DNA from: Buchnera aphidicola (Brevicoryne brassicae)
GTDB taxonomy: Bacteria; Pseudomonadota; Gammaproteobacteria; Enterobacterales; Enterobacteriaceae
Assembly (NCBI RefSeq): GCF_005082825.1
Contig: NZ_CP034882.1
Span: forward strand, 446,318 to 510,317
Reading direction: 5' to 3'
DNA length: 64,000 nucleotides
Part shown: positions 4,833 through 42,331 of the stretch, in pieces
How the letters are laid out: every line of letters starts with the position of its first letter
Numbering within the stretch: the stretch's first letter is position 1
Translations under genes and position numbers: made by a program
Notes under the pieces: model-generated
Told to the model about the DNA's origin: nothing
Seen by the model: only the letters and a program-made list of their open reading frames with translations
Databases searched by the model: none

Positions 4833-5545
4833 ATGATAAAAAAAATAGTAGTTATAATCAGTATGTTTTTTTTTTATTTTCGATTAAAAAAAATAATTTT
4901 AAAAAAACCACAAAAAATTTTTATCAAACAAAAATTATAGCAATTAGAATTCATCAAAATGCACCAGGCTCATTTTACTGTGGATGTAAAATTATTTGGA
5001 AACAAAAAAAAGGTATTCCTATTTTAGGATCTTGTGGATATAAAATCCGTAAAAATAAAAATCGAGCAACAAGAATTGAATGGGAACATGTAGTACCAGC
5101 ATGGCAATTTGGACATCAAAAAAAATGTTGGAAAAAAGGAGGTCGTAAAAAATGTACACAAGATCAAACATATAAAAATATTGAATCAGATCTTTATAAT
5201 TTACAACCAGCAATCGGAGAAATAAATGCAGATCGTTCTAATTTTATGTATGACGAACTAAAAAAACAAACCCCCAAATATTATGGAAAATGTAAAATGA
5301 AAATAGATTTTAAAAGAAAACTTGTAGAACCACCTAAGAGATCTAGGGGAAGTATAGCTAGAACTTATTTTTATATGAGCGAACGATATAAAATTATTTT
5401 ATCTCAAAAACAAAAAAAAATATTTAAAAAATGGGATAAAATTTTTCCTGTAACAAAATGGGAATGTACAAGAGAACGACTAATATTTCAAGTACAAGGT
5501 TATCATAATAATTATGTTTATAAAAAATGTCTTCTTAAAAAATAA
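4833..5545 (+). CDS. endA: Endonuclease I, reading frame interrupted at a T10 run
   Basis: E. coli EndA is a periplasmic DNA endonuclease. The ATG at 4833 opens a basic, hydrophobic leader ([11 protein letters not shown]) that runs into ten T at 4866-4875 and then reaches a stop at 4938. From the T run onward another frame (codons beginning at positions such as 4877 and 4922) encodes the whole mature protein: [25 protein letters not shown] with the active-site region, [17 protein letters not shown], and SIARTYFYM. All eight Cys of the E. coli mature protein that I can place have partners. One extra T joins the frames into 237 residues, against 235 in E. coli. The mature frame has no usable ATG, GTG or TTG upstream. 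It is either rescued by slippage, recently broken, or an assembly undercall; automatic annotation would call it a pseudogene. Confidence 0.85.
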
Positions 5546-6302
5546 TAATATAAAAAATTATAAGAAAAACATTCCTCGTATTTATATGAAAGAAAAATTA
5601 AAAATTAATGAAACTTATTTCTTATCAAAAGATAATATGCATTACATTCAAAGTGTTTTAAGAATGAAAATGCAAGATATAATAGAAATATTTAATGATA
5701 CTAATTATATTTTTTTTGGTAAAATAATATTTTTGTCTGTTCAAATCATTAAAATTAAAATTTTTAGAAATGAACTTAGAAACATCGAATCTCCAATCAA
5801 CATTCATTTAGGACAAATAATTTCTAAAAATGAAAAAATAGATTTCATTATACAAAAATCAATTGAAATGGGTGTTAATATAATTACACCTTTATTTTCT
5901 GAATATTGTAATGTCCAAAAAAAATTTTTTAATGTATCTCATAAAATACAACGTTGGAATAAGATAATCATATCTGCATGTCAACAATGTAATCGTAATA
6001 TTATTCCTAAAATTCAAAATCCTAAAGATATTTTAGCATGGTGTCAAGATGCTCAAGAAAATGATATGAAAATTGTTTTTCATCCAGAATCTCATTTAAC
6101 AATTAATCAATTAAATAAATTCACAAAAAATATTAGAATAATCATTGGCCCCGAAGGTGGTTTATCAAAGCATGAAATTAAAAAAATTATTGAATATGGA
6201 TTTACTTCAATAAAATTAGGACCTAGAATATTAAGAACAGAAACAGCTGCTATTGCAGCAATTACTGCATTACAAATAAAGTTTGGTGATTTTATAATAT
6301 AA
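5514..6302 (+). CDS. rsmE: 16S rRNA (uracil-1498-N3) methyltransferase
   Basis: SAM-dependent SPOUT-fold enzyme that methylates U1498 of 16S rRNA near the decoding centre. Recognised by [44 protein letters not shown], the knot motif [13 protein letters not shown] and [20 protein letters not shown]. The ATG used here gives 262 residues, 19 more than E. coli (243), with a basic extension before NIPRIY, which aligns with the start of the E. coli protein. No ATG, GTG or TTG lies nearer to that point, so the extension may be real or a rarer start may be used. The start overlaps the end of endA by 32 bases in another frame. endA-rsmE is also the E. coli order. Confidence 0.93.
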
Positions 6303-6336
6303 AATACTTACTTTAAAAAAAAATTATTAAGTTATC

Positions 6337-6353
6337 AACTTATAAAATAAGTT
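6337..6353. terminator. Hairpin between convergent rsmE and fau
   Basis: AACTTAT (6337-6343) and ATAAGTT (6347-6353) are perfectly complementary around AAA. On the minus strand, downstream of fau, a run of nine U follows after about a dozen bases; on the plus strand the following T run is short. A weak A+T-only candidate. Confidence 0.35.
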
Positions 6354-6944
6354 TTAAAAAACCCATATTTTATTAGGTGTTAAAACAAGAGGTAAAGAAA
6401 CATCCCAGTGTTGTTTAGGTATGTTAGATACTAATTGAAAATTATAAGATAAACCTACTGGAAAAAAATTTTTTTTGTACCAATTTTTTAAAAAAACATC
6501 ATAAAATCCTCCACCCATGCCTAGTCTTACACCTTTTTTATCAAAAGCTACTAAGGGCACTATTATTGTATCTAAATTATAAATTGAAATAATATCTTGA
6601 ATATTAAAAATAGGTTCTAATATATTATATTTATTGTAATATAAAATAGAATTAGAAGTAAGACGAACAAATAACATTTTCTTGTTTTTAAAAGAAAATA
6701 TTACAGGAACAAAAACGTTTTTTTTATTTAACCATAATTTTAAAATTAAAGGGTATGTGTTTATTTCACCTTCGAATGGTAAAAATAAAGCAATATTTCT
6801 GCTATTATAAATAAATTTGCAATTATATGCAATTTTAGAAATTTTAACTGATGCATCATATTGTTCTGTAATACTTAATGATTTACGGGCAATTTTTATA
6901 TATGTACGAATACTGTCTCTATGTTTAAAAATTTTTGATAACAT
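6354..6944 (-). CDS. fau: 5-formyltetrahydrofolate cyclo-ligase family protein (YgfA/Fau)
   Basis: ATP-dependent conversion of 5-formyltetrahydrofolate to methenyltetrahydrofolate, returning a dead-end folate to the one-carbon pool. The 196 residues compare with 182 in E. coli; the extra length is mostly N-terminal. The family signature [20 protein letters not shown] is near residues 128-147, with [14 protein letters not shown] earlier and [10 protein letters not shown] at the end. It lies two bases after rpiA on the same strand, so the two are co-transcribed. In E. coli the 6S RNA gene precedes it; here rpiA takes that place and no 6S-like sequence is visible. Confidence 0.94.
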
Positions 6945-6946
6945 AA

Positions 6947-7618
6947 TTAAATTATTTTGTTTTGTTTAATAGTTCTAATACCTTTTTTTGTGCCAATTAA
7001 AACAATATCTGCACGTCTTGAAGCAAATAAACCTACTGTTACAACACCCGGTAATGAATTAATTTTTTTTTCCATTAAAATAGGATCTTTGATACATAAA
7101 TTATATGCATCTATAATAATATTACCATTATCTGTAATAATATTTTTTCGATGTTTGGGTTCTCCTCCAATTTTTATTATTTCTTTTGAAACATAAGAAA
7201 GTGCCATAGGAATAATCTCAATAGGTAAAGGAAATTTTCCAAGAGCATCTACTATTTTTGATTTATCAACAATACAAATAAATTGTTTTGCCATTGCAGC
7301 AATAATTTTTTCTCTAGTTAAAGCTGCACCTCCTCCCTTAATCATTTGCATTTGATGATTTATTTCATCAGCACTATCAATATAAATAGTAAGTGAACTA
7401 AAATTTTTTAAATTAAAAACTTGTATTCCTTGTTTTTTTAATAAAAATGTAGAAGTATTAGAGCTAGACACTGCACCATGTATTATGCTTTTAATTGTAC
7501 TTAATGCTTGAATAAAATAAAAAATAGTTGTTCCGGTTCCAACTCCAATAATAGCACCAGGACGAATATAATCTAATGCAGCCCATGCTGCTTTTTTTTT
7601 TAATTTATCTAAATTCAT
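6947..7618 (-). CDS. rpiA: Ribose-5-phosphate isomerase A
   Basis: Interconverts ribose 5-phosphate and ribulose 5-phosphate in the non-oxidative pentose phosphate pathway, supplying PRPP and nucleotides. The 223 residues compare with 219 in E. coli. Visible motifs are IGVGTGTT (phosphate loop, about 24-31), [11 protein letters not shown], the catalytic region [24 protein letters not shown] and the active-site stretch [20 protein letters not shown]. The A+T-rich gap upstream, before the tRNA genes, carries an 18-bp tandem repeat. Co-transcribed with fau. Confidence 0.97.
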
Positions 7619-7679
7619 GATATTAAAAACTTATTTTTAAAAAAAATTATAAAATAATAGATTATTCGTTTAATTTAAT

Positions 7680-7715
7680 TAGAAATTAATAATTTTATAG
7701 AAATTAATAATTTTA
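7680..7715. repeat. 18-bp tandem duplication upstream of rpiA
   Basis: The unit tagaaattaataatttta occurs at 7680-7697 and again, identical, at 7698-7715. It lies in non-coding A+T-rich DNA between rpiA and tRNA-Gln. It looks like a simple slippage duplication; no function is evident. Confidence 0.8.
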
Positions 7716-7785
7716 AATTATAAATTGATATTTTTTAAAAAATATTGTTTATTTAAAAGAATGAGAAAAAGATAGTGTTTTAGAA

Positions 7786-7860
7786 TGGCTGGGGTACCTG
7801 GATTCGAACCAGGGATGCCGGTATCAAAAACCGGTGCCTTAACCTCTTGGCTATACCCCA
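7786..7860 (-). tRNA. glnU: tRNA-Gln (anticodon UUG)
   Basis: On the minus strand the acceptor TGGGGTA pairs with TACCCCA, the anticodon stem CCGGT/ACCGG encloses TTG, the T arm is GGTTCGAATCC and the discriminator is G. CCA is encoded (7786-7788). Last gene of a Met-Leu-Gln cluster in the order of the E. coli metT-leuW-glnU operon. It must read both CAA and CAG unless another tRNA-Gln exists elsewhere. Confidence 0.98.
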
Positions 7861-7874
7861 ATTTAGTGTATATA

Positions 7875-7956
7875 TACGGGAGGCGAGATTTGAACTCGCA
7901 CACCTTTCGGCGCCAGAACCTAAATCTGGTGCGTCTACCAATTTCGCCACTCCCGC
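7875..7956 (-). tRNA. leuW: tRNA-Leu (anticodon UAG)
   Basis: Class II tRNA on the minus strand: acceptor GCGGGAG with CTCCCGT (the end pair is G-U), anticodon stem CCAGA/TCTGG enclosing TAG, a short variable arm, and T arm GAGTTCAAATCTC. The discriminator is A; CCA is not encoded. Middle gene of the Met-Leu-Gln cluster. Confidence 0.97.
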
Positions 7957-7966
7957 TAAAAAACAT

Positions 7967-8040
7967 TGGCTACGACGGGATTTGAACCCATGACCCCAGC
8001 GTTATGAGTGCTGTGCTCTAACCGACTGAGCTACGTAGCC
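7967..8040 (-). tRNA. metT: Elongator tRNA-Met (anticodon CAU)
   Basis: Minus strand; acceptor GGCTACG/CGTAGCC and overall sequence match E. coli elongator tRNA-Met rather than the CAU-bearing tRNA-Ile2. The anticodon stem is CAGCA/CGCTG, so positions 31 and 39, next to the loop, form an A-C mismatch where E. coli has A-U. Discriminator A; CCA is not encoded. First gene of the Met-Leu-Gln cluster. Confidence 0.97.
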
Positions 8041-8067
8041 TATTAAATATTTAGTTATATAACAATT

Positions 8068-8073
8068 ATTATA
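8068..8073 (-). promoter_or_regulatory. Possible -10 element of the Met-Leu-Gln tRNA operon
   Basis: A consensus TATAAT on the minus strand ends 27 bases before the tRNA-Met 5' end. I see no good -35 at 16-18 bases; TTGATT at 8096-8101 is 22 bases away. Suggestive only. Confidence 0.25.
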
Positions 8074-8155
8074 CTTTATAATATATTAATTGAATAATCA
8101 ACAAAAATATTTTTATCAATCTATTTAAAATAGATAAAAACATAATGAGAAAAAA

Positions 8156-9841
8156 ATGAATAATAAAACAAAAAAATACACAAATAATTTTATCAGTCAA
8201 ATTATTAATAAAGATGTTAATGACAATGAAAATTTATCACTTAAAACTCGATTTCCTCCTGAACCAAATGGATATCTTCACATTGGTCATGCAAAATCAA
8301 TATGTTTAAATTTTGAACTAGCTCAATTATATAATGGAAAATGTAATCTTCGTTTCGATGATACAAATCCATTAAAAGAAAACATAAAATATATCAGTGC
8401 AATTAAAAATGATATTAATTGGTTGGGGTATAAATGGCATAATATTCATTATTCTTCTGAATATTTTCCAAAATTATATAAATATGCAAAGGAACTGATT
8501 AAAAAAGGTCTTGCATATGTAGATCAATTAACAAAAGAACAAATACGTGAGTATAGAGGCACTTTAAAACAACCAGGAATAAATAGTCCATATAGAAATA
8601 GAACTATTCAAGAAAACATAAAATTATTCAAAAAAATGAAAAGAGGAGATTTTTCTGAAGGAGAAGCATCTTTACGTGCAAAAATTGATATGAAATCTGC
8701 TTTTATTGTTATGCGTGATCCAGTTATATATAGAATTATTTTTTCTGAACACCATCAAACTAAGAAAAAATGGTGTATATATCCTATGTATGATTTTGCT
8801 CATTGTATTTCTGATGCTATTGAAGGAATTACTCATTCATTATGCACATTAGAATTTCAAGACAATAAATCTCTATATAACTGGATTTTAAAAAATACTA
8901 GTGTGAAAAAATATCCTCAGCAATATGAGTTTTCTCGATTAAATTTAGAATTTTGTATCTTATCTAAAAGAAAATTATCAATTTTAATCGATAAAAAGCT
9001 AATAACAGGATGGAATGATCCTCGTATACCAACATTATCTGGTTTAAGAAGAAAAGGATATACACCATCTTCTATTAAAAATTTTTGTGAAAAAATCGGT
9101 ATAACTAAACAAGATAATTTAATAGAATTTTCTATGCTAGAACACTGTATTAGAAAAGAATTAAATAAAACATCTATTCGCACAATGGCTATATTAGAAC
9201 CAATTAAAATATTTTTATATAATTTAGATAAAAATCATGAAGAAAAGTTTACAGTTCCTAATCATCCAAATAATCCAGAATTAGGAACTCATGAAATTAT
9301 TTTTACTAATATTATTTATATTGATCGTTTAGATTTTAAAGAAAAATATAACAAAAAATACAAAAAATTAAAACTTGGTGGAGAAATACGTCTAAGATAT
9401 GCTTATGTAATAAAAGCGGAAAAAATAGAAAAAGATGAAAATAATAATATTGTTAAAATAATATGTTACTGTGATCTAAATACTTTAGGTAAAAAAACAA
9501 AAAACAATAAAAATCCTTCAGTAATACACTGGATTTCAGTAAAAAATTCATTTCCAGCAGAATTTAGACTTTATGATCACTTATTCAATATAAAAAATCC
9601 AGAAAAAGAAAAAAACTTTCTTTCCTATATCAATCCAAAATCATTAATAATAAAAAACGGTTTTATTGAAAAAAATATTGAAAAAAATATTGAAAAAAAT
9701 ATTGAAAAAAATATAGGGGAAAATTTCTTTCAATTTGAAAGAATTGGTTATTTTTGTATAGATAATATAGATTCTAAAAAAGATAAATTAGTGTTTAATC
9801 GCACTGTTAGTTTACGTGATTTATGGAATTTAAAAAAATAA
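8156..9841 (+). CDS. glnS: Glutaminyl-tRNA synthetase
   Basis: Class I synthetase that charges tRNA-Gln, including the tRNA-Gln(UUG) encoded just upstream. The 561 residues compare with 554 in E. coli. The HIGH motif lies in [15 protein letters not shown] at about residues 32-46, and the KMSKS equivalent is LSKRKL, as in E. coli. The C-terminal beta-barrel anticodon-binding region ends in [11 protein letters not shown]. Residues 504-519 are four identical IEKN units encoded by a perfect 12-bp tandem repeat, in a place where the E. coli protein has unrelated sequence. The frame stays open through the repeat and the conserved GYFCIDN block follows, so the enzyme should be functional. The next gene, pyrG, is 301 bases away. 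Confidence 0.97.
9665..9712 (+). repeat. Four-copy 12-bp in-frame tandem repeat inside glnS
   Basis: The unit attgaaaaaaat is repeated four times without a mismatch, in frame, giving Ile-Glu-Lys-Asn four times. Twelve bases is a multiple of three, so changes in copy number would leave the gene open. It lies in the C-terminal anticodon-binding part of the synthetase. Confidence 0.97.
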
Positions 9842-11789
<1,948 letters not shown>

Positions 11790-11823
11790 TTATAAAAATT
11801 TTTTAAATATATTAAGGTAAAAA

Positions 11824-13128
11824 ATGTCTAAAATTATAAAAATCATAGCTCGTGAAATAATAGATTCTCGAGGTAACCCTACTATTGAATCTGAAGTACA
11901 TTTAGAAGGAGGTTTTGTTGGTTTGGCTTCTTCTCCTTCTGGAGCTTCTACAGGTTCTTTAGAAGCTTTAGAATTAAGAGATGAAAATAAAAGTAGATTT
12001 TCTGGAATGGGCGTAAAAAAAGCAGTCTCATTAATTAATGAAAAAATATCAACTGCTTTAAAAAGTAAAAACGCCAAAGATCAAAATTATATTGATAACA
12101 TTATGATTGATTTAGACGGTACAATTAACAAATCAAAATTAGGTGCAAATGCTATTTTATCTGTCTCTTTAGCTACTGCAAAAGCTGCCGCTCTATCAAA
12201 AGGAATGCCTTTATATCAACACATAGCAGAAATTAATAATACCCCAGGAATTTTTTCTATGCCACTTCCGATGATTAATATTATTAACGGTGGAAAACAT
12301 GCTAACAATAATATTGATATTCAAGAATTTATGATTCAACCCATTAGTGCAAAAACAATGAAAGAAGCTATACGTATGGGATGTGAAATTTTTCATTCAT
12401 TAGGATCATTGTTAAAAGAAAAAGGAATGAGTACTACAGTAGGAGATGAAGGAGGGTATGCCCCTAATTTAAAATCAAATCAAGAAGCGTTAAATCTTAT
12501 TCAAGATGCGATACAAAGAACTAAATACAAATTAGGAAAAGACATAAGATTAGCAATAGATTGTGCAGCATCTGAGCTATATAATAAAAATAATAAAACA
12601 TACGAATTAAAAGGAGAAAAAAAGAGCTTTTCTTCAAAAGAATTTACTCATTATCTAGAAAAATTATCTAATAAATATCCTATTTCTTCCATTGAAGATG
12701 GACAAGACGAATCTGATTGGCCAGGATTTTTATATCAAACAAATATATTAGGAAATAAACTACAATTAGTAGGAGATGATTTATTTGTAACTAATACAAA
12801 AATTTTAAGAAAAGGAATTGAAAATGGCATCGCTAATTCTATTCTAATCAAATTAAACCAAATTGGAACATTAACAGAAACTCTTGAAACTATAAATATG
12901 GCAAAAAAATCAAACTATAGTGTTATAATATCTCATCGTTCAGGTGAAACAGAGGATGCATCTATAGCTGATTTATCTGTAGGAACATCATCTGGCCAAA
13001 TTAAAACTGGTTCTATGAGTCGATCTGATAGAACAGCGAAATATAATCAATTAATTAGAATAGAAGAAGTTTTAGGTAAAAAAAATGCGCCGTTTCGTGG
13101 ACTAAGGGAAATTAAATCAGCATTTTAA
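11824..13128 (+). CDS. eno: Enolase
   Basis: Converts 2-phosphoglycerate to phosphoenolpyruvate; in E. coli it is also a degradosome partner of RNase E. The 434 residues compare with 432. Visible motifs: [13 protein letters not shown] at the N terminus, SGASTG with the loop Ser, [16 protein letters not shown], the acid [34 protein letters not shown], the catalytic Lys region LIKLNQIGT, and [16 protein letters not shown] precedes the ATG. It is followed by a probable terminator and then queE. Confidence 0.98.
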
Positions 13129-13160
13129 TTTAGAAAATGAAAACTATTTCTAAAAAGAAT

Positions 13161-13200
13161 CAGGTATTTTTTATAAAATATGCCTGTTTCTTATTTTTAT
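13161..13200 (+). terminator. Probable terminator of pyrG-eno
   Basis: CAGGTAT (13161-13167) pairs with ATGCCTG (13180-13186), with one G-U pair and further A-T pairing inside, and a T-rich tail from 13187 follows. It lies about 30 bases after the eno stop and before queE. Confidence 0.5.
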
Positions 13201-13225
13201 TTAAACGTCAATTAATGAGAAAATT

Positions 13226-13885
13226 ATGCATTATCCAATTAATGAAATGTTTCAAACAATACAAGGAGAAGGCTATCATACTGGAATTCCATCAATTTTT
13301 ATTCGATTACATGGTTGTCCAATTCATTGTAAATGGTGTGATACAAAATATACTTGGAACTGTCTCAAAAGTAATGAAATTACTATCGAAAAGTTGCTAG
13401 AAAAAAACATTTCAAATAATACATGGAGTTACATTGATGTAAAAAAAATAATTTTAAACATAAAAAAACAAAAATGGAAATCTAAACATATTGTAATTAC
13501 TGGTGGAGAACCATGTATATATAATTTATCTTCTCTTACAGAAGAACTAGAAAAAAAAGGATTCACATGTCAAATAGAAACAAGTGGAACTCAACTAATT
13601 AATTGTTCTTTTAATACTTGGGTTACTGTGTCTCCTAAAAAACACAAAAATACATTATATACTTCAATATTACGTGCAAATGAAATTAAATATCCAGTAT
13701 TTAAAAAAGAAGATTTATCATATTTAGATGCAATTTTATCAATTTTAAACAACCGAAAAAAATGTCATATTTTTTTACAACCAATTAGTCAAAATCAAGA
13801 GTCATTAAAAATTTGTATCGAAAGATGCACAATTAAAAATTGGCGTCTTTCTATACAAATTCATAAATATCTTTTAATAAGGTAG
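13226..13885 (+). CDS. queE: 7-carboxy-7-deazaguanine synthase
   Basis: Radical-SAM enzyme of queuosine synthesis: converts 6-carboxy-tetrahydropterin, the QueD product, to 7-carboxy-7-deazaguanine. The 219 residues compare with 223 in E. coli. MHYPINEMFQTIQGEGYHTG opens the protein, the [4Fe-4S] ligands are in GCPIHCKWCDTKYTW, and VITGGEP, QIETSGT and WVTVSPKK follow. Its partner queD is the convergent neighbour 17 bases away. Both genes survive in a genome that has lost most tRNA modifications, so queuosine in tRNA is probably still made if the remaining genes are elsewhere. Confidence 0.97.
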   Translation: MHYPINEMFQTIQGEGYHTGIPSIFIRLHGCPIHCKWCDTKYTWNCLKSNEITIEKLLEKNISNNTWSYIDVKKIILNIKKQKWKSKHIVITGGEPCIYNLSSLTEELEKKGFTCQIETSGTQLINCSFNTWVTVSPKKHKNTLYTSILRANEIKYPVFKKEDLSYLDAILSILNNRKKCHIFLQPISQNQESLKICIERCTIKNWRLSIQIHKYLLIR

Positions 13886-13902
13886 TTTTCTATAATTATT
13901 TT

Positions 13903-14265: not shown

Positions 14266-14322
14266 ATATTTATAAGAACATGTATATTAATTAATAAATT
14301 TAAATAATTAAACGTTAGTAAA

Positions 14323-28590: not shown

Positions 28591-29219
28591 ATGAAAAAAA
28601 TATTAATTTTTTTATGTAGTATATTTCTATCTTTTAATGTTTTATCGTTTGAATTTACTAATAAAAAAGAATATAACACAAAAAAAAAAGTATACATAAC
28701 GTTCCTAAAATAATAGAGTTTTTTTCATTTTTTTGTCCATATTGTTATGAATTTGAAAAAACACATAATATAAGAAAATTGATTAAAAAAAATATTAACA
28801 AAAACGTTAAAATTCATACATATCATGTTGATTTAATGGGAGAAAAATTAAGTTATATTTTAACAAAATCTTGGATAATAGCTGAACAGATGGGAATTGA
28901 AGAAAAAATTATGCTTCCCATTTTTAATGGTATTCAAGACACTCATGAAATCAAAAATATTAGTAGTATAAAAAAATTATTTAAAACAAAAGCAGGAATT
29001 AATGAAAATACATTTAATAATTTTTGGAATAGCTTGACAATTGAAATGTTAATTCAAAAACAAAACAAAAACATCAAAAAATGTGAATTAAAACATGTTC
29101 CAACAATGCTTATCAATGGAAAATACATAATTGATTATTCCAATATAGAAGAAATTTTTAAAGATAATTTTTCTCAAAAGTACATTAGATTAATTCAATT
29201 TTTAATTAAAAAAAAATAG
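28591..29219 (+). CDS. dsbA: Thiol:disulfide interchange protein DsbA, frame interrupted at an A10 run
   Basis: Periplasmic oxidase that introduces disulfides. ATG at 28591, after GGGTGA, opens a clear signal peptide (MKKILIFLCSIFLSFNVLSF), runs into ten A at 28680-28689 and stops at 28711. A second frame continues from the run: VPKIIEFFSFFCPYCYEFE with the active-site CPYC, KIHTYHVDLMGEKLSYI, and a C-terminal VPTMLINGKY with the cis-Pro. Adding one A gives 209 residues (208 in E. coli) and joins the halves at the expected place, just before the thioredoxin fold. No start codon suits the second half alone, and without the first half there is no signal peptide. Slippage-rescued, newly broken or an undercall. 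Confidence 0.87.
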
Positions 29220-29396: not shown

Positions 29397-30265
29397 ATGT
29401 ATCAAACAAAAATACCTATTATTATAATAGATGGAAGCTTATATTTATATACTTCTTATTATGGATTTCGTGATTTTAAAAATGCTATAGGAGAGCCATA
29501 TGGTGCTATATATGGTATATTAAAAATGATAGATAATATTTTAAAAAAATTTTTTTTTGTTAAACAATTAATTATTATATTCGACTCTTTTAAAACAACA
29601 TTTAGAAAAAAAATGTTTCAAGACTATAAAAGTCATAGACCTCCTATGCCACATTCACTCTATGTTCAAATTCAACCTCTTTTTAAAATACTAAAAAAAA
29701 TCGGAATAAAAACATTAAGTATTCCAGGAATAGAAGCAGATGATATTATTGGAAGCTTGTCATCTAAATTAGAAAAAGAAGGAGAAAAGATATTAATTGT
29801 AAGTCATGATAAAGACATGTTACAACTTGTAACAAAAAACATTAATATTTTAAATAAAAAAAAAAATATATTATTACACCAAAAATAATAAAAAACGAAT
29901 ATGGTATCAAACCTAAAGAATATATTGATTTTTTAGCTTTAATCGGAGATACTTCAGATAACATTCCAGGTGTTCCTAAAATAGGAATAAAAACTGCATT
30001 ATTCTTATTAAATAAATTTTCTAATATTAAAAATATTTATGGAAATATCGAGAAAATACCGTTTTTACCATTTCGAAATTCTAAAAATATTGCAATTCAA
30101 TTAAAAAATCACAAAGAAACAGCTTTTCTTTCATATCAACTAGCAAAAATAAAACTAGACATTCCTATTGATATAACATCAAAAGATATGTTTTTAAAAC
30201 AACATTGTACTAAAAATTTATTTGATTTCTTTAAAAGTTTTTTTAAAAATCAAGGTGTTTCATAA
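29397..30265 (+). CDS. polA: DNA polymerase I 5'-3' exonuclease domain only, frame interrupted at an A11 run
   Basis: Flap endonuclease for removing RNA primers and excising damage. The ATG at 29397 gives 163 codons matching the E. coli Pol I N terminus (SHRPPMPHSLYVQIQPL, GIEADDIIG, SHDKDMLQLV) before a stop at 29886; a second frame from eleven A at 29856-29866 continues with EYIDFLALIGDTSDNIPGVP (helix-hairpin-helix) and KETAFLSYQLAKIKLDIPID. One extra A gives 289 residues. The proofreading and polymerase domains (about 600 residues in E. coli) are wholly absent, as known for Buchnera. Acidic metal ligands lie on both sides of the break, so neither half should be active alone. Xni is a less likely identity because the Pol I-specific blocks match. 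Confidence 0.85.
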
Positions 30266-32872: not shown

Positions 32873-32911
32873 TTTAAGTTGAAATTTATTATAAATACAA
32901 TCTATTATTAA

Positions 32912-32956
32912 TTATATAATTCTATTGTTCCAATAGAATTATATAAAATATTTTTT
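32912..32956. terminator. Long perfect hairpin between convergent typA and gmk
   Basis: A 16-base-pair perfect stem (32912-32927 with 32931-32946) closes on a three-base loop, and a run of six T (32951-32956) follows on the plus strand. It is the clearest rho-independent-like terminator in the window for typA, and could stop gmk transcripts too, since an inverted repeat works on both strands. Confidence 0.65.
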
Positions 32957-32978
32957 AAAAAAACTATTGTTTAAAGAA

Positions 32979-33602: not shown

Positions 33603-33681
33603 GATTTTTAAAAAAATTAATTTTAAATAAAAAATAAAAGTAAATATTTTATATTATATATATATAAAATATCGTTCTTAT

Positions 33682-33713
33682 AAAGAACATATTTAAAGAA
33701 CATATTTAAAGAA
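33682..33713. repeat. 13-bp tandem repeat, two and a half copies, between gmk and ygfZ
   Basis: aaagaacatattt occurs at 33682-33694 and 33695-33707, and its first six bases recur at 33708-33713. It lies in the gap upstream of gmk, so it may fall in or near the gmk promoter. Copy-number change between strains is likely. Confidence 0.75.
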
Positions 33714-33731
33714 ATATTTTTTTATACATAA

Positions 33732-34694
33732 CTATATAGTTTTCATGAAAAAAACATTCTCAAATCCACGTATTCTAAACGAATCATTTATATTTACAGG
33801 TTTATAAAGCACTACTTGTATTAACATTTCTTGAGAATTAACATGAACTATAGCTAATAAAACACCTATCTTATACCATTTTTTTTCTAATTTAATTTCA
33901 ATAAAAGAATTGATTTCAGGAAAAATTTTTCCCATTCCAATTAAATAACATAAATAATATTTATTTAAATTTTTAAAAAATATTCGTGCTATTGTTTCTT
34001 GTCCATAATAACATCCTTTTTTAAAACTAATAGCTTCAAGCTTGTCTAAATTAATAGCTTGAGGTGTAAATTTTTTAGAACATTTTTCATCAATAATTGG
34101 AAAACCGGCTTCAATGTCTAATGCAGTCCATTGTCTACTATCATTTAAAAATATTTTCTTATTAATACTTTTTTTAAAAAACAAAAAATCTGATAAAGGT
34201 AAAACTAATAAAAACCGTTCTGATGGTTTTGAAAACCATAATATAGTTTTTTTGCATTCATGAACTACTGGTGAATTTTGATCTGGTATTGTTTCAAAAA
34301 AATCTAATAAAAATAATCTAGCATTTAAACCTGCAATTCCTATTAGATAAATATGATCTAATTTATAAATCCTTATTTTTGAAAAAATAGAATATTTTTT
34401 TAATTCTTTTATTTGAGTTTTAGAAATACTTGTTCTTTGAATATAACCGTAACCTTTATCATAGTGAAATAAACGCATAGTAGTCCATACTTTTCCATTA
34501 AAATTACAGTGGGCACAAAGTGTATGATTTGTTTTTTTTAATAAGTTTATATCAATTGTTAATTGATTTTGAAGATATCTTTGAGCATCAGAACCTTCTG
34601 CATAAACAAAAGACCACTCATTTAATAATATCATAGTTAATGATAATTTATTTGATGGATAAATTATCTCTTTTGGTGATATAAATACTGACAT
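33732..34694 (-). CDS. ygfZ: tRNA-modifying and iron-sulfur-related folate-binding protein YgfZ
   Basis: Folate-binding protein that supports a subset of iron-sulfur enzymes, including MiaB (encoded in this window). The 320 residues compare with 326 in E. coli. The diagnostic K-G-C-Y-x-G-Q-E motif is present as FKKGCYYGQETIARI, with GSDAQRYLQNQLTIDI near the N terminus and DIEAGFPIID before the motif. The functional Cys is intact. It is divergent from prfB, sharing a 176-base A+T-rich gap in which I see no clear promoter. Confidence 0.94.
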   Translation of the reverse strand: MSVFISPKEIIYPSNKLSLTMILLNEWSFVYAEGSDAQRYLQNQLTIDINLLKKTNHTLCAHCNFNGKVWTTMRLFHYDKGYGYIQRTSISKTQIKELKKYSIFSKIRIYKLDHIYLIGIAGLNARLFLLDFFETIPDQNSPVVHECKKTILWFSKPSERFLLVLPLSDFLFFKKSINKKIFLNDSRQWTALDIEAGFPIIDEKCSKKFTPQAINLDKLEAISFKKGCYYGQETIARIFFKNLNKYYLCYLIGMGKIFPEINSFIEIKLEKKWYKIGVLLAIVHVNSQEMLIQVVLYKPVNINDSFRIRGFENVFFMKTI

Positions 34695-34870
34695 TTTTCT
34701 ATTCCCTTAAAATATAATTAAAATTAATTCTATAAATTTAAAATAAATGAATTTATTTAAAATAATCTATCATATAATAAAAATTACGTAACGTTTTATA
34801 TGATCAAAAATCATTCATTAAAACTATTTAAAAAAATTTATTAAAAAAATATAAAAACATTGGAAGAAAT

Positions 34871-35954
34871 ATGATTACTAATCAAATTGATAATTTAAAT
34901 AAACGTATACAAGATCTTAAGAGGTATCTTTGAATATAATAAAAAAAAATCACGTGTTTTAGAAATTGATTTAGAATTATTATCACCTGAGATATGGAAA
35001 AAACACAAATCTATAAAAAAACTTAATAAAGAAAAATATTCTTTAAATACAATAATTGACGATATTAATCAAGTAGAAATACATATAAAAGAAGCAATTA
35101 TTTTTTCAGAACTGGCTATAGAAACAACAGATAGCAAGTTATTTGAAGATGTTTTTTTAAAAATCAAAAAAATTGAGAAAAAAATCAAAAAAATTGAGTT
35201 TTATCGTATGTTTTCAAGTAAACATGATAATTGTAATTGTTATGTTGATATACAATCTGGTTCAGGAGGAACAGATGCGCAAGATTGGGCGAAAATATTA
35301 TTAAGAATGTATTTAAAATGGGCTGATAAAAAAGGATTTCAAACAGAAATTATTCATGAATCTATTGGAGAAATAGTTGGAATTAAATCTGCTACTATTA
35401 AAGTACATGGAGAATATGCTTTTGGATGGTTAAGAACAGAAACAGGAATACATCGCTTAATTAGAAAAAGTCCTTTCGATTCAGGCAAAAGACGTCATAC
35501 TTCTTTTAGTTCAGTTTTTGTATATCCAGATATAGATGATCAAATTTATATAAATATCAATTCATCTGAACTAAGAGTAGATGTTTATAGAGCATCTGGG
35601 GCTGGTGGACAACATGTAAATCGAACAGAATCAGCTGTAAGAATTACTCATCTACCAACAAATCTCGTTACTCAATGTCAAAGTAGTCGTTCTCAACATA
35701 AAAACAAAGAACAAGCAATACAACAAATGAAATCTAAATTATATGAAATGCAAAAAAGAGAAAAACAAAAAAAGAAAAAAGAACTAGAAAAAAACAAATC
35801 TAATATAACTTGGGGAAACCAAATACGCTCATATATATTAGATAATTCAAAAATTAAAGATCTTCGTACTGGTATTGAAAAAAATCATATTCAATCTGTA
35901 TTAGATGGAGATTTAGACGATTTTATTGAACAAAGTTTAATAATAGGATTATAA
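34871..35954 (+). CDS. prfB: Peptide chain release factor 2, read through a programmed +1 frameshift
   Basis: Terminates translation at UAA and UGA. The first 20 codons from the ATG at 34871 end at an in-frame TGA (34931-34933); the rest lies in the +1 frame. The joint is the classic RF2 shift site: a Shine-Dalgarno-like AAGAGG, then TAT CTT TGA A, at which the ribosome slips on CTT and continues with GAA. The fused product has 360 residues (365 in E. coli). Codon recognition uses [15 protein letters not shown] (SPF tripeptide) and catalysis [15 protein letters not shown] (GGQ). The TGA is the regulatory stop: scarce RF2 favours shifting. lysS follows nine bases later, as in E. coli. Confidence 0.96.
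34919..34934 (+). promoter_or_regulatory. RF2 programmed +1 frameshift site
   Basis: AAGAGG-TAT-CTT-TGA-A compares with AGGGGG-TAT-CTT-TGA-C in E. coli. The Shine-Dalgarno-like hexamer keeps three bases to CTT, the slippery CTT is unchanged, and the fourth base after TGA is A rather than C. Autoregulates prfB by RF2 level. Confidence 0.93.
35601..35608 (+). other. Chi octamer (E. coli type) in prfB
   Basis: GCTGGTGG, the sequence at which E. coli RecBCD changes from degradation to recombination, occurs here within the codons of the GGQ motif. It may be a by-product of the coding constraint. Confidence 0.4.
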
Positions 35955-35963
35955 GGAAAAATA

Positions 35964-37466
35964 ATGTCAGAAACAGAAAATAGTATTTCTAATAATGAAA
36001 CATTTATCAGAAAACAAAAATTTATAAATATGAAAAAAGAAGGATTTTCTTTTCCAAATAACTTCAAAAGAAATACTACTTCAAAAAAAATCCATCAAAA
36101 ATATAACAAAAAAGATACTAATAAACTTAAAGAGTTAAAAATTAACGTTTCTATTGCTGGTCGTATGATACAAAGACGTATTATGGGAAAAGCCTCTTTT
36201 TTTACATTACAAGACATGGAAGGTCAAATACAAATATATGTAAAAGAAAAAGAAATATCATCTGAAAATTATAAAAACAATTTTAAAAAATGGGATATTG
36301 GCGATATTTTAGCAGTGATTGGAACATTATTCAAAACCAAAACTGGAGAATTGTCAATTTATTGCAGTAATATAAAAATACTTAATAAATCATTAAAATC
36401 ACTACCTGATAAGTTTCATGGATTATCTAACCAAGAAACTCGTTATCGAAAAAGATACTTAGACTTAATTAGTAATAATCAATTGTATAATGTTTTTAAA
36501 AATCGTTCTAAAATTATCATGGCAATTAGAAGTTTTATGAAAGAACATGATTTTTTAGAGGTAGAAACTCCAATGTTACAAAATATTCCCGGAGGAGCAA
36601 ATGCTCGTCCTTTTATTACTTACCATAATGAAATTAATACAAAAATGTATTTAAGGATAGCACCAGAATTATATTTAAAAAAATTAATTATTGGAGGTTT
36701 TGAACGTATTTTTGAACTTAATAGAAATTTTCGCAATGAAGGAATATCTAGTCGACATAATCCAGAGTTTACTATGATGGAAGCATATATTGCATATTCT
36801 GATTATGAAGATATGATGAAATTTACAGAAAATCTTGTTAAAAGTATTACAAAATTAGTTTTTAAAGATACTAAAATTAAATATCATAATTATTATTTTG
36901 ATTTTAATAAACCATTTTACAAAATCACCATGAAAAATGCCATTCTTAAATTTAATCCACAAATTACACTATCTGATTTAGAAAATCTAGATAAGATAAA
37001 AAAAATTGCTAAATTAATAGGTATAAAAATAGAAAAAACATGGGAAATAGGAAAAATAGAAAATGAAATATTTGAAAAAACTGTAGAAAAAAAATTAATC
37101 CAACCTACTTTTATAACTCAATATCCAGTAGAAGTTTCTCCGTTAGCAAGACGTAATAATATTAATGCAAATGTAACAGATAGATTTGAACTTTTTATAG
37201 CTGGATATGAAATAGGAAATGGATTTTCAGAATTAAACGATGTAGAAGATCAAAAAATTAGATTTTTAAATCAAATCAAAAAAGAAAAACAAGAAAATAA
37301 TAAAGATATATTTTACGATCAAGATTATATAGAAGCTTTAAAATACGGTTTGCCCCCAACATCTGGATTAGGTATTGGAATTGATCGTCTAATAATGATA
37401 CTAACTAATCAAATTAGTATTCGTGATGTAATTCTATTTCCAACACTTCGTCGATCTAGTAAATAA
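35964..37466 (+). CDS. lysS: Lysyl-tRNA synthetase (class II)
   Basis: Charges tRNA-Lys. The 500 residues compare with 505 in E. coli. An OB-fold anticodon-binding domain (VSIAGRMIQRRIMGKASFFT at about 61-80) precedes the class II core: motif 1 region FLEVETPMLQNIPGGANARP, motif 2 FELNRNFRNEGISSRHNPEF, and motif 3 GLGIGIDRLIM near the C terminus. AAGGAAA precedes the ATG. Follows prfB by nine bases, so the pair is co-transcribed. Confidence 0.97.
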   Translation: MSETENSISNNETFIRKQKFINMKKEGFSFPNNFKRNTTSKKIHQKYNKKDTNKLKELKINVSIAGRMIQRRIMGKASFFTLQDMEGQIQIYVKEKEISSENYKNNFKKWDIGDILAVIGTLFKTKTGELSIYCSNIKILNKSLKSLPDKFHGLSNQETRYRKRYLDLISNNQLYNVFKNRSKIIMAIRSFMKEHDFLEVETPMLQNIPGGANARPFITYHNEINTKMYLRIAPELYLKKLIIGGFERIFELNRNFRNEGISSRHNPEFTMMEAYIAYSDYEDMMKFTENLVKSITKLVFKDTKIKYHNYYFDFNKPFYKITMKNAILKFNPQITLSDLENLDKIKKIAKLIGIKIEKTWEIGKIENEIFEKTVEKKLIQPTFITQYPVEVSPLARRNNINANVTDRFELFIAGYEIGNGFSELNDVEDQKIRFLNQIKKEKQENNKDIFYDQDYIEALKYGLPPTSGLGIGIDRLIMILTNQISIRDVILFPTLRRSSK

Positions 37467-37540
37467 TTTTGATAAATTAAAATACAATTTTAAAAAAATA
37501 AGAAAATAAATATTTTGATAAACATTCAATAGGAAACAAA

Positions 37541-38788
37541 ATGCCAGAACTTCTAAATAACATGAAAAGTAATTTTAATATAAAAAAAATTAAACTATTA
37601 ATAAACCAGTATCAGTCTCCATTTTGGGTTTACGATTCTAATATTATTTACAAAAAAATCAAATTGTTAAAAAAATTTGATGTTATTAGATTTGCTCAAA
37701 AAGCTTGTTCAAATATTAATATATTGCGCTTAATGAGAAATAAGAATATAAAAGTAGACGCAGTTTCATTAGGTGAAATCGAACGAGCTTTATTATCAGG
37801 TTTTAAAAAAAATACAAATGAAATAATTTTTACTGCGGATATCTTAGATAAAGAAACTTTATCTAAGGTAATAGATTATAACATACCAGTTAATGCTGGT
37901 TCTTTAGATATGTTAAAACAACTAGGAACAGCATCTCCAGGTCATAATGTTTGGTTACGTATAAATCCAAGGTTTGGATACGGACATAGCAAAAAAACAA
38001 ATACAGGAGGAGAAAATAGTAAACATGGAATTTGGGAACCTTCCTTAGCAATACCAATTATAAAAAAATACAAATTAAATTTAATAGGTTTGCATATGCA
38101 TATTGGTTCTGGAGTTGATTATGTACATTTAAAAAAAGTTTGCAAATCTATGGTAGAAAAAGTTATTGAATTAAATCAAAAAATATCATCTATTTCTGCT
38201 GGTGGAGGATTGCCAATACCATATAAATTTAATGAAAAACCTATTAATATAAAAAAATACTTCACATTATGGGATACAGCTAGAAAAGAAATATCAAAAT
38301 TTTTAGGGAAAAAAATCGAATTAGAAATCGAACCTGGAAGATTTTTAGTTGCAGAATCAGGAATTTTAATATCAAAAGTATGGTCTGTAAAAAAAATGGG
38401 TAATAAAAATTTTGTTTTAGTAGATGTAGGATTTAATGATTTGATGAGACCAACTATGTACGGTAGTTATCATCATATATCAGTTATTTCTGGAGATAAT
38501 AGAAACATTGATGAAAAAAACACAATAAACACTGTCATAGCAGGACCTTTATGTGAATCAGGTGATATTTTTACACAAAAAGAAGGAGGTACCGTGCAAA
38601 CTAGAAAATTACCAATAATAAAAGTTGGAGATTATTTAATTTTTCATGATACAGGTGCTTATGGTGCTTCAATGTCATCGAATTATAATACAAGACCTCT
38701 AATTCCAGAAATATTATTAGAAAATAATGATTCCTTTATTATTCGAAGACGTCAAAAAATAGAAGAAATATTAAATTTAGAAATGTAA
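37541..38788 (+). CDS. lysA: Diaminopimelate decarboxylase
   Basis: Final step of lysine synthesis: PLP-dependent decarboxylation of meso-diaminopimelate. Lysine is an essential amino acid the symbiont supplies to the aphid. The 415 residues compare with 420 in E. coli. The PLP lysine is in RFAQKACSN, followed by SLGEIERALLSG, GLHMHIGSG, the glycine loop SAGGGLPIPY, EIEPGRFLVAESG and the dimer-interface CESGD. GATAGGAAAC gives a modest ribosome-binding site. E. coli lysR, its divergent activator gene, is absent, so expression is probably unregulated. Confidence 0.98.
   Translation: MPELLNNMKSNFNIKKIKLLINQYQSPFWVYDSNIIYKKIKLLKKFDVIRFAQKACSNINILRLMRNKNIKVDAVSLGEIERALLSGFKKNTNEIIFTADILDKETLSKVIDYNIPVNAGSLDMLKQLGTASPGHNVWLRINPRFGYGHSKKTNTGGENSKHGIWEPSLAIPIIKKYKLNLIGLHMHIGSGVDYVHLKKVCKSMVEKVIELNQKISSISAGGGLPIPYKFNEKPINIKKYFTLWDTARKEISKFLGKKIELEIEPGRFLVAESGILISKVWSVKKMGNKNFVLVDVGFNDLMRPTMYGSYHHISVISGDNRNIDEKNTINTVIAGPLCESGDIFTQKEGGTVQTRKLPIIKVGDYLIFHDTGAYGASMSSNYNTRPLIPEILLENNDSFIIRRRQKIEEILNLEM
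38198..38205 (+). other. Chi octamer (E. coli type) in lysA
   Basis: A second GCTGGTGG in the same orientation as the one in prfB, 2.6 kb downstream, over the Ala-Gly-Gly codons of the conserved SAGGG loop. Again possibly coding coincidence. Confidence 0.4.
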
Positions 38789-38837
38789 TATTTTTTTAAA
38801 AATTATTTTTAATAAAACAAGAGGTTTTTAACAAAAA

Positions 38838-39689
38838 ATGTACATTATGTTTCCTAATTTCAATCCTATTATCTTTAATATTGGTCCTATATCTGCTCGT
38901 TGGTATGGTCTTATGTATTTTTTTAGTCTAGTTTTTGCTGTATGGTATGGAAAAAAAAAAGTATTAAAAAACAAAATATATAATATAAAAAAAACAGAAA
39001 CATTTATATATTCTATTTTTTTAGGTTCTTGTATCGGAGGTAGAATAGGCTACATTATTTTTTATAACTTTCCATATTATTCTAATAATATACTACATAT
39101 ATTTTATATATGGGAAGGTGGTATGTCATTTCATGGAGGATTAATAGGTGGCATCATTACCATATTATATCTTTCTTTTAAATACAAAAAAAAAATACTA
39201 GAAATATCTGATTTTATAGTTCCTTTAGTGCCATTTGGTTTAGGTGCTGGAAGATTAGGGAATTTTATTAATAGTGAGCTATGGGGTCGCATATCGCCAA
39301 ATTTTTCATATGCAGTGATTTTTCCTAATTCTCAATATCAAGATTTAGAAATAATTAAAAAACGTCCAGAATTAAAAATTCTATTAGAAAAATATGGCGG
39401 ATTACCACGTCATCCTTCACAGTTATATGAATTTTTTTTAGAAGGAGTAGTTTTATTTTTCATAATTTATTTTTTTACAAAAAAAAATAGATCTACAGGT
39501 AGCGTTAGTGGTTTATTTTTAATTACCTATGGTGTATTTAGAAGTATTTTAGAATTTTTTCGAGAACCAGATCCTCAAATTGGATTATTTAAAAATATGA
39601 TCACTATGGGACAAATATTATCAATTCCAATGATTATTTTAGGAATTATTATAATATTTAAAACTTTTTATAAAAAATCGGATTTTTGA
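38838..39689 (+). CDS. lgt: Prolipoprotein diacylglyceryl transferase
   Basis: Inner-membrane enzyme that attaches diacylglycerol to the lipobox Cys of prolipoproteins, such as NlpD and the probable MltA encoded here. The 283 residues (291 in E. coli) are strongly hydrophobic with several membrane segments. The signature is [12 protein letters not shown] with the essential His, followed by [17 protein letters not shown] and RHPSQLYE. The frame passes cleanly through an A10 run at 38951-38960. lgt-thyA is also the E. coli order; lgt stops five bases before thyA. Confidence 0.96.
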
Positions 39690-39694
39690 AAAAA

Positions 39695-40489
39695 ATGAAA
39701 CAATATCTTAAATTAGTAAAAAAAATAATTAAGAATGGTAATCAAAAAAAAGATCGAACAGGTACAGGAACATTATCTATTTTTGGTTATAATATGAAAT
39801 TTAATTTAAAAAAAGGTTTTCCTTTAATTACAACAAAAAAATGTCATATTTCATCTATTATTCATGAACTTCTATGGTTTCTAAAAGGTGATACCAATAT
39901 TAAATACTTAAATGATAACAAAATATCAATTTGGGATCATTGGGCAGATGATTTTGGAGACGTTGGTCCAATTTATGGAAAACAATGGAGAAGTTGGAAT
40001 ACATTAGAAAACAAAAAAATTGATCAAATAAAAAATATATTAATAAAATTAAAAACGGATCCTGATTCTCGTAGAATTTTAGTCTCTAGTTGGAATGTTG
40101 GTGAAATAGATCAAATGAAATTACCTCCTTGTCATGTACTTTTTCAATTTTATGTTTTCAAAAAAACATTAAGCTGCCAACTTTATCAACGTTCCTGTGA
40201 CGTATTTCTTGGTCTACCTTTTAACATAGCTAGTTATGCACTACTCATACACATGATAGCACAACAATGTAATTTAAAAGTAGGTGAATTTTTGTGGACA
40301 GGAGGGGATGTACATTTATATAACAATCATATTGAACAAGCAAAAAAACAAATAACAAGAACTCCTTTAAAACTTCCAAAATTAATGATTATTAAAAAAC
40401 CAACATCATTATTTCAGTACTCCTTCAAAGACTTTAAAATTATTGGATATAATCCTTATTCTTCTATCAAGGCGAAAATATCTATATAA
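39695..40489 (+). CDS. thyA: Thymidylate synthase
   Basis: Methylates dUMP to dTMP with methylenetetrahydrofolate. I start at the ATG at 39695, giving 264 residues, exactly the E. coli length, with MKQYL aligned; a TTG three codons upstream is open but overlaps lgt. Motifs: [28 protein letters not shown], the catalytic Cys in [12 protein letters not shown] (equivalent to E. coli Cys146), [20 protein letters not shown] and [13 protein letters not shown]. In a genome this rich in A and T, demand for dTTP is high. Confidence 0.97.
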
Positions 40490-40534
40490 ATATAAAAATT
40501 TTTATATAAAAACTTAGGCTGATTATTTACACAT

Positions 40535-41854
40535 ATGAAATATATATACATAAAAACTTGGGGCTGTCAAATGAATGAATACGATTCATCTATGATAGTC
40601 AAATCACTTGAAAAAAATAATGAATATTTAATTACTGAAAATGTAGAAAAAGCTAGTATCTTAATATTAAACACTTGTTCTATAAGAGAAAAAGCTCAAG
40701 AAAAAGTTTTCCATCAGCTAGGTAGATGGAGAAAATTAAAAAAAAATAATCCCGAAATTATTATTGCTGTAGGAGGTTGTGTTGCAACTCAAGAAGGTAA
40801 AGAAATTTTTAAAAGAGCTAATTACGTAGATATTGTATTTGGAACTCAAACATTACATAGATTACCAAAAATGATTTCTGAAGTAAAAAAAAACCGTAAA
40901 TATTTTATAGATATTAGTTTTCCTAAACTAGAAAAATTTAATTATTCTTTACAACCTAAAAAAACTGGATGTACTGCATTTATTTCTATTATGGAAGGAT
41001 GTAATAAATATTGTTCATTTTGTGTAGTACCATATACTAGAGGTAATGAAATTAGTCGACCATGTGATGATATTTTATTTGAAATATCAATTTTAGCAAA
41101 AAAAGGTGTAAGAGAAATTAATTTATTAGGACAAAATGTTAATGCATATCAAGGACCTACTTTTAATGGACAAATTTGCTATTTTTCTGAATTAATAAGA
41201 TTAGTAGCTGAAATAGAAGGAATTGATAGAATTCGTTTTACCACAAGTAATCCTCTTGAATTTACTGATGATATTATTGAAGTATATCGCGATACACCAA
41301 AATTAGTAAGTTTTCTTCATCTTCCAGTACAAAGTGGTTCTAATAAAATACTTAGTCTAATGAAACGATCATATACAATAGAAGACTATCAATTTATTAT
41401 TGAAAAATTAATCTCTGCTAGACCTGATATTCAAATAAGTTCGGATTTTATCGTAGGTTTTCCAGGAGAATCGGAAATAGATTTTCAAAAAACCATTATG
41501 TTTATAAAAAAAATCAATTTTGATATGAGTTTTAGTTTTATATATTCTAATAGACCTGGTACACCTGCATCTGAAATAAAAGACAATATTAATTTAAAAG
41601 AAAAGAAAAAACGTTTATATATTTTACAAAATATTATCAACATACAAACTATGATGTGGAGTAGAAAAATGTTTGGGAGCACACAATCAGTTCTAGTAGA
41701 AGGAATATCTAATATGAATGTTATGGAATTATATGGTCGAACAGAAAATAATAGAATTGTAACTTTCACCGGAAAATCTAGTATGATTGGACAATTTGTT
41801 AATTTAAAAATCACAAAAATACATACGCATTCGTTAAAAGGTGAATTAATTTAA
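40535..41854 (+). CDS. miaB: tRNA-2-methylthio-N6-dimethylallyladenosine synthase
   Basis: Radical-SAM methylthiotransferase that adds the 2-methylthio group to i6A37 of tRNAs reading UNN codons, which dominate this genome. The 439 residues compare with 474 in E. coli; the missing part is the C-terminal tail after the TRAM domain. The auxiliary cluster uses Cys in [17 protein letters not shown] and GGCVAT; the radical-SAM cluster is [27 protein letters not shown] and [12 protein letters not shown] follow. ybeZ, next in E. coli, is missing, so ybeY comes directly after. Confidence 0.97.
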
Positions 41855-41873
41855 AATAATTAAATAAAAAAAT

Positions 41874-42331
41874 ATGAATAATATTATTATAAATCTTCAA
41901 GTATGTTGTAAAAAAAATCAATTGATACCAAAAAAATTACATTTTAAACAATGGTTAAAAAAAGTATTTTATAAAAAAAAAACATTAATATCGTAACAAT
42001 ACGTATTGTAGATAAATCAGAAATGAAATATTTAAATTTTACCTATAGAGGTAAAAATAAATCAACAAACATCTTATCATTTCCTTGTAATAAATTTATA
42101 AAAATCAACCATAAATTATTAGGAGACTTAGTTTTATGTAAGCAAGTAATAGAATACGAATCTTTAAAATATAAAAAAAAATTAGAATCACACTGGGCTC
42201 ATATAACAATACATGGAGCTTTGCATTTATTAGGATATGATCATCAAAATAAAAAAGAAGCATACATTATGGAAAAATTAGAAAATAAAATTATGTTATC
42301 TTTAAATTATAAAAAACCATATGTTGTTTAA
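41874..42331 (+). CDS. ybeY: Endoribonuclease YbeY, frame interrupted at an A10 run
   Basis: Zinc-dependent RNase for 16S rRNA 3'-end maturation and ribosome quality control, among the most conserved bacterial genes. The ATG at 41874 gives an N terminus resembling E. coli YbeY (MNNIIINLQVCCKK, then FKQWLKKVF), meets ten A at 41973-41982 and stops at 41994. From the run, another frame continues with VTIRIVDKSEM, NFTYRGKNKSTNILSFP, LLGDLVLCKQVI and the catalytic zinc motif HGALHLLGYDH. One added A gives 152 residues (155 in E. coli). The catalytic half has no convenient start near the run; an ATG at 42023 would omit conserved sequence. Loss is unlikely to be neutral, so rescue or an undercall is favoured. 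Confidence 0.87.

Follow-up and report, generated by a model that had tools for sequence, protein, structure and literature searches.

Frameshifts at homopolymer runs, and the rescue of the affected genes, are already established in the endosymbionts Buchnera and Blochmannia, where slippage on poly(A) tracts has been described (Tamas et al. 2008, as reported in PMC5009743, PMC3164680 and PMC3017870). Corrected transcripts, cited at 12-50% for an aphid and an ant symbiont (PMC5009743), were measured there for cell wall genes of the aphid symbiont and a histidine gene of the ant symbiont. Here we describe four genes, endA, dsbA, polA and ybeY, in a 64,000-nucleotide stretch of the chromosome of Buchnera aphidicola from the aphid Brevicoryne brassicae (G000:C1:446318-510317, hereafter the window; the genome comprises 656,629 bases and the chromosome 645,850). 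As in the published cases, an otherwise sound gene of an A/T-rich endosymbiont carries a single frameshift at a long run, but the genes are other ones, and the analysis is genus-wide and made from DNA alone. Two of them, endA and ybeY, are probably still made by means of polymerase stutter. For endA, ybeY and dsbA together we consider it likely that slippage of the polymerase on A10 or T10 provides in-frame mRNA, which would make all three working genes.

Several other systems are close to this one. In Blochmannia, ancient homopolymer frameshifts have been kept by selection (Wernegreen et al. 2010, via PMC3017870); there, as here, the same split occurs across species without detectable decay, whereas the present case concerns Buchnera, endA and ybeY, spans 36 genomes and includes unsplit copies that fall within split groups of the tree. 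Degnan et al. (2011; PMC3164680) counted 8 to 18 homopolymeric frameshifts per genome in six Aphidinae genomes (their Table 1); those cases are mostly confined to a single genome, and neither endA nor ybeY appears in the main text. An oligoA frameshift in chloroplast atpB is likewise partly corrected (Malinova et al. 2021, PMC8254509), but in the available part of that report the ribosome is credited with the correction, and the lines were mutant and transplastomic, unlike the natural, fixed state considered here. A frameshifted ybeY is listed for Blochmannia turneri (PMC4389277, consulted in part). We found no literature joining Buchnera, endA and frameshift, and for ybeY only work on Blochmannia and on Mollicutes, in a search outside which lay the two founding papers and the supplements; we make no claim of priority for the genus-wide cases.

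Genes of this kind are often counted as inactivated in histories of gene loss in symbionts. With many species, a nearly fixed run length and unsplit sister copies, endA and ybeY are ready test cases, and they have probably been carried in the split state since two aphid tribes separated. They bear on polymerase error as a lasting part of gene expression, and as a possible setter of dose.

Four genes change frame at long A/T runs

All four genes lie on the forward strand. A preliminary description of the window had reported that each switches frame at its run and that one added base would join the frames. Three-frame translation confirmed both points: different frames are open on either side of a run of 10 or 11 A or T, and one added base gives proteins of 237 (endA), 209 (dsbA), 289 (polA) and 152 (ybeY) residues. 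The endA gene (endonuclease I; 4833..5545) has its start codon and signal-peptide end in one frame, from 4833 to a T10 run at 4866..4875, and its nuclease in another (about 4876-5545). It had been presented as split with conserved residues on both sides; the frame change at T10 stands, but the run does not divide the nuclease, since only the signal-peptide end precedes it. In dsbA (28591..29219), about 30 codons are read in one frame before an A10 run (28680..28689) and the remainder in another. The polA gene, which consists of the nuclease part only (29397..30265), has 5_3_exonuc_N before an A11 run (29856..29866) and 5_3_exonuc after it, in another frame. In ybeY (endoribonuclease YbeY; 41874..42331), 33 codons precede an A10 run (41973..41982) and the remainder lies in another frame.

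When single-frame pieces were compared with Pfam, matches were found to Endonuclease_1 in endA (2e-37), DSBA in dsbA (5.8e-07), 5_3_exonuc_N and 5_3_exonuc before and after the polA run (1.9e-45 and 7.6e-29) and YbeY in ybeY (6.4e-28). No Pfam match was found for the 33 residues of ybeY that precede the run, but they can be aligned with the unsplit ybeY of relatives. Each of the four genes is thus open except for one change of frame, which falls at an A/T run of at least about 9, and frameshift alignment found no lesion in the polA copy beyond the break at the run. The window holds 18 runs of at least 10, of which 14 lie within intact open reading frames and four within the split genes, which agrees with the earlier remark that not every A10 is miscalled.

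The same runs are broken in other Buchnera genomes

The preliminary description had proposed comparing run length and frame in other Buchnera genomes. We did so in 36 genomes of the genus, designated by G numbers (G000 is the source of the window), taking the sign of each break from a frameshift aligner and from reading the three frames by eye. Hosts were matched to some of these genomes by inference: Schizaphis graminum to G001, Acyrthosiphon kondoi to G002, Lipaphis pseudobrassicae to G003, Hyadaphis tataricae to G004, Rhopalosiphum padi to G009, Uroleucon ambrosiae to G016, Diuraphis noxia to G027, A. pisum to G029 and Hyperomyzus lactucae to G034. The breaks of endA, ybeY and dsbA recur at the same run. 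Events at the ybeY N-terminus in G012, G014 and G017, and at the C-terminus of endA in G001 and of polA in G010, were left uncounted as end effects of the reference.

The endA gene, which was not found in G023 among the 36 genomes, is split at this run in 28 of the 35 others, with T10 in 26 and T9 in 2. All 28 splits fit the addition of one base (+1); for G017, where the aligner gave two -1 events, three-frame reading showed that one +1 at T10 joins the frames, and it was counted as +1. Unsplit copies occur in G015, G018, G019, G021, G025, G028 and G030, that of G025 having T10 yet being in frame. For ybeY, 26 of 36 genomes are split at this run (A10 in 23, A9 in 2, A13 in 1). The 23 A10 genomes and G025 (A9) need +1, while G012 (A9) and G034 (A13) need -1 or +2. 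The gene is unsplit at this run in G004, G005, G008, G015, G016, G019, G021, G022, G026 and G028. Among these, G005 has A10 yet is in frame, and G015 and G021, which we counted as unsplit at the studied run, have a +1 break at a second A10, next to the start codon; if translation begins further downstream, these two copies have no break. Unsplit copies at the two sites show other lengths, interrupted runs or altered flanks. The shortest run in any split ybeY or endA is 9, and a run of 11 was found in none of the genomes, neither A11 at the ybeY site (0/36) nor T11 at the endA site (0/35). The other two genes are split far more narrowly: dsbA in 4 of 36 genomes (G000, G003 and G027 with A10, G004 with A13), and polA in 2 of 36 (G000 with A11, needing +1, and G027 with A10, needing -1 or +2 and thus in a different phase), with an intact A9 in G003.

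These comparisons bear on whether the assembly undercalls the runs. Such an error is plausible where A/T runs are long and difficult to call, and each of the four genes appears one base short. However, for endA, ybeY and dsbA undercalling is ruled out, because separately assembled genomes of other species break at the same run. These include genomes matched to A. kondoi (endA and ybeY) and U. ambrosiae (endA, at T9), which come from Illumina and 454 reads. Moreover, in 5 kb of pLeu, the plasmid of B. brassicae Buchnera that the small plasmid of G000 matches at 99.9%, all 14 runs of at least 8 have lengths identical to those in a separate isolate from B. brassicae. Undercalling can thus practically be dismissed as an overall explanation, although polA, where phase differs between close species, may still be such a case. 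Of the two explanations originally offered, slippage or undercalled reads, it is slippage that is left as the best reading for endA, ybeY and dsbA.

Selection acts on the split endA and ybeY genes

The ratio of nonsynonymous to synonymous substitution rates (dN/dS) was estimated in ten close pairs that share genomes, the misaligned polA pair G014/G033 being left out. For endA, where both members of every pair are split, the ratio is 0.19, measured on the part downstream of the run. For ybeY after the run it is 0.24 in pairs with both members split and 0.19 in unsplit genomes. Before the run it is 0.51 in the both-split pairs (320 codon pairs; single pairs 0.20 to 1.56), and in an anchored segment of 28 codons it is 0.43 in split against 0.33 in unsplit genomes. 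In all 23 A10 genomes the 32 codons that lead up to the ybeY run are free of stops. As judged by these ratios, endA and ybeY are under purifying selection while split, ybeY on both sides of the run, with a weaker and noisier signal before it. For dsbA the ratio is 0.22, nine of the ten pairs being unsplit, and 0.19 in the only both-split pair (G000/G003). For polA before the run it is 0.19 in nine pairs, mostly unsplit, and no close pair is split in one phase on both sides.

If these were ordinary pseudogenes, inactivated by insertions or deletions (indels) at hotspots, they would be on their way out. Homopolymer frameshifts have indeed been treated mostly as inactivations, the majority of them in single genomes (PMC3164680, in the part available), and the absence of a detected endA in G023 is in keeping with gene loss. 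The polA break, furthermore, is young: three close species carry A9 (intact), A10 and A11, the latter two split in different phases. This combination of a lineage-specific break and an unstable run length fits two marks of a recent pseudogene. Yet endA and ybeY are split genus-wide without decay, at low dN/dS and with the run unchanged. We therefore regard decay as very improbable for the set of genes, with polA as the only good candidate left.

Another simple solution would be an internal start in the downstream frame. As a general answer it was rejected, because up to codon 60 of the conserved part this frame has no ATG, GTG or TTG in 15 of the 28 endA and 8 of the 26 ybeY split genomes. It could still apply in individual species, some candidate codons being well placed (ybeY of G018 and G020, codon -24).

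The endA and ybeY splits are probably ancestral

A midpoint-rooted tree of the 36 genomes, built from 605 amino-acid columns of the four proteins, requires six changes between split and unsplit for ybeY and six for endA, and unsplit copies are nested inside split groups. The four dsbA splits, in contrast to this, form one clade (support 99/96), so this split is confined to one clade of four species. Genomes with split endA and ybeY include those matched to Schizaphis and Rhopalosiphum on one side and those matched to Acyrthosiphon and Brevicoryne on the other, hosts which we take to place both splits in the tribes Aphidini and Macrosiphini. The separation of these two tribes has been dated to a mean of 65 million years (PMC3164680, in the part available). 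Given the splits in both tribes and the position of unsplit copies inside split groups, we regard the endA and ybeY splits as probably ancestral, at an age of about 65 million years. Repeated return to the unsplit state would be the simplest history, although parsimony is no proof of it.

The runs themselves have also lasted unusually long. As a control, we considered 48 in-frame runs of at least 9 in intact genes of the window, 43 of which were readable in six relatives (G001, G002, G003, G027, G029 and G034). Only one of the 43 stayed at 9 or more in all six, and 13 did so in none. The endA run is T10 in all six relatives and the ybeY run A10 in five and A13 in one, whereas the dsbA and polA runs do not persist in them. 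The probability of such persistence is 0.003 for endA and ybeY, the two having been picked after the data were seen, and 0.016 when all four genes are counted. In endA and ybeY the bases flanking the run vary while the run is constant. A split that is common to several species and older than ordinary run turnover is thus found in endA and ybeY; that of dsbA occurs in four species of one clade, and polA has no such split.

How the short runs may arise and be read

Three of the genes, endA, ybeY and dsbA, lack one base in the DNA, at a run of A10 or T10. Runs longer than 10 would tend to contract, so the short state would be easily reached. During elongation RNA polymerase would slip on the run and add a base in a fraction of transcripts, and these would carry the joined frame and yield the full protein. 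Slippage would make the short state tolerable and permit its persistence over tens of millions of years. We infer slippage, its efficiency and the production of protein in this way from the observed sharing of the splits, constancy of the runs, selection and nested unsplit copies. The polA break is a separate and recent case at an unstable run, which may be rescued by slippage or newly broken.

Run lengths in Buchnera agree with the first step. In 204 kb of G000 there are 134 runs of 9, 33 of 10, 3 of 11 and 1 of 12. Of seven genomes counted, six have 0.00-0.15 runs of 11 for every run of 10, compared with 0.25-0.50 runs of 10 for every run of 9; G001 shows no drop above 10 (12 runs of 10, 3 of 11). 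Because run lengths fall so sharply above 10, a gene that needs 11 or 12 bases to be in frame tends to sit at 10. In Buchnera mRNA, moreover, homopolymers account for 151 of the 157 insertions, compared with 16 of the 57 deletions (PMC5574713, in the part available). The drop in run length and this insertion bias together imply that a one-short state would be both easily reached and repairable by slippage.

It had been argued that random decay could not be expected to strike at the run with the same sign in all four cases. This was overstated: long runs are indel hotspots, and the drop above 10 favours the one-short state. The same sign in four of four genes is weak evidence (one-sided P 0.06), and a wider set of distinct events gives 11 of 14 (one-sided P 0.03), a count that rests on a choice made by eye. 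Either the run-length drop or slippage repair could, alone, suffice for the bias in sign.

Long pure runs, at least 9 in every split endA and ybeY, and the insertion sign are consistent with slippage. Several observations weigh against it. Three split copies need -1 or +2 (polA in G027, ybeY in G012 and G034). Runs of 9, as in two split ybeY (A9) and two split endA (T9), are short for slippage. The dN/dS values of ybeY before the run are noisy, with some pairs above 1 and pairs sharing genomes, and some ATG, GTG or TTG is present in the scanned stretch in 13 of 28 endA and 18 of 26 ybeY split genomes. Finally, according to the available part of PMC5574713, none of the transcription errors detected there restored a frame.

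The ribosome might instead restore the frame: tandem tRNAs that slip by -1 on A AAA AAA or U UUU UUU would give the same protein as one added base. The required heptamers are present within the runs, and the chloroplast atpB oligoA frameshift was assigned to ribosomal recoding, with no polymerase slippage within the stated detection limit (PMC8254509, in the part available). On the other hand, the 70 nucleotides after the run fold no better than shuffled sequences (mean z -0.20 in 26 ybeY, with 2 of 26 below -2, and +0.20 in 28 endA), and a core resembling a Shine-Dalgarno sequence lies upstream in 1 of 26 ybeY and in none of 28 endA. A stimulated -1 frameshift in ybeY and endA thus has no support from a downstream structure or upstream element, while the heptamer would still allow unstimulated slippage. 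Furthermore, A7 should suffice for a -1 shift in the same phase, yet all split ybeY and endA runs have at least 9. On balance, we think ribosomal correction unlikely, although we take it as the serious rival of polymerase slippage.

Buchnera cells are polyploid. Both run lengths could therefore coexist in the DNA of a population, with the assembly showing the commoner one and the minor copy making the protein. Single-base indel polymorphisms occur within two Buchnera populations (PMC3164680, in the part available), and run length can differ between close species: pyrD, a further split gene described below, is split at T10 in G010 and intact at T11 in its sister G032. However, in most lineages the in-frame allele would then have had to remain the rarer one, and no A11 (ybeY) or T11 (endA) was seen in any genome. 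This explanation seems to us quite improbable.

To slippage as the source of endA and ybeY protein we add a doubtful extension, namely that the one-short state is itself selected. It would form a fixed slippage valve that, in a genome without most regulators, holds down the amounts of two nucleases, one periplasmic and one that processes rRNA. The absence of A11 at the 36 ybeY sites and T11 at the 35 endA sites, although one inserted base would suffice, speaks weakly for such a valve, 11-runs being rare generally. Regulation of expression by frameshifts has already been raised in print (PMC3164680, in the part available); if a dose valve exists, the genus-wide case would be the new element.

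Further split genes and runs

Other split genes were sought in 204 kb of G000 and 206 kb of the genome matched to A. pisum, where splits were picked by eye from 19 and 18 candidates, respectively. The remaining candidates, including 5 and 6 needing -1, look like neighbouring genes or chance frames. Since the survey required both flanks of a break to be open for 40 codons, it passed over breaks close to the start of a gene, such as those of endA, dsbA and ybeY in G000. In G000, tsaB (A12), pyrD (T9, or a nearby A8) and ispA (A10) are also split, all +1. In the A. pisum-matched genome cmk, rsmC, fabD and pyrD are split, likewise all +1, the first three at runs of 8-10. The tsaB split lies at A12 around G000:C1 366379; its downstream piece has no Pfam match, and the family is known from the upstream piece alone. 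For pyrD (G000:C1 about 400369-401378), 33 of 36 genomes were matched and 30 loci read, one start not being found; +1 is needed at T9/T10 in 8 of 29 genomes classified. In ispA, on the reverse strand, an A10 split is common to G000 and G003, and G016 is split at A13 (seven loci read).

Beyond the genus, the ybeY open frame is full in most of 99 genomes of the family (G000 and G024 included). It is short outside Buchnera in G048, G053, G063, G087 and G119. In the four that were read (all but G063), inspection by eye places the break at a different run or, for G048, close to the Buchnera site; these splits are probably independent of that in Buchnera. A deeper origin of the ybeY split was rejected, since most frames in the family are full and the split copies outside the genus have their break at a different run or close to this one. 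Among 12 small-genome relatives whose ybeY was read, 4, which had been chosen for their short frame, are split within its first third, which thus appears to be a recurrent spot.

The single control run that stayed at 9 or more in all six relatives lies in a gene which, from its sequence, is presumably rpiA (6947-7618, reverse strand). The run, at position 547 of the coding sequence, is exactly A9 in all six, the only such run among the 43; its constancy could be chance, or it could mark a slippage site yielding a truncated product.

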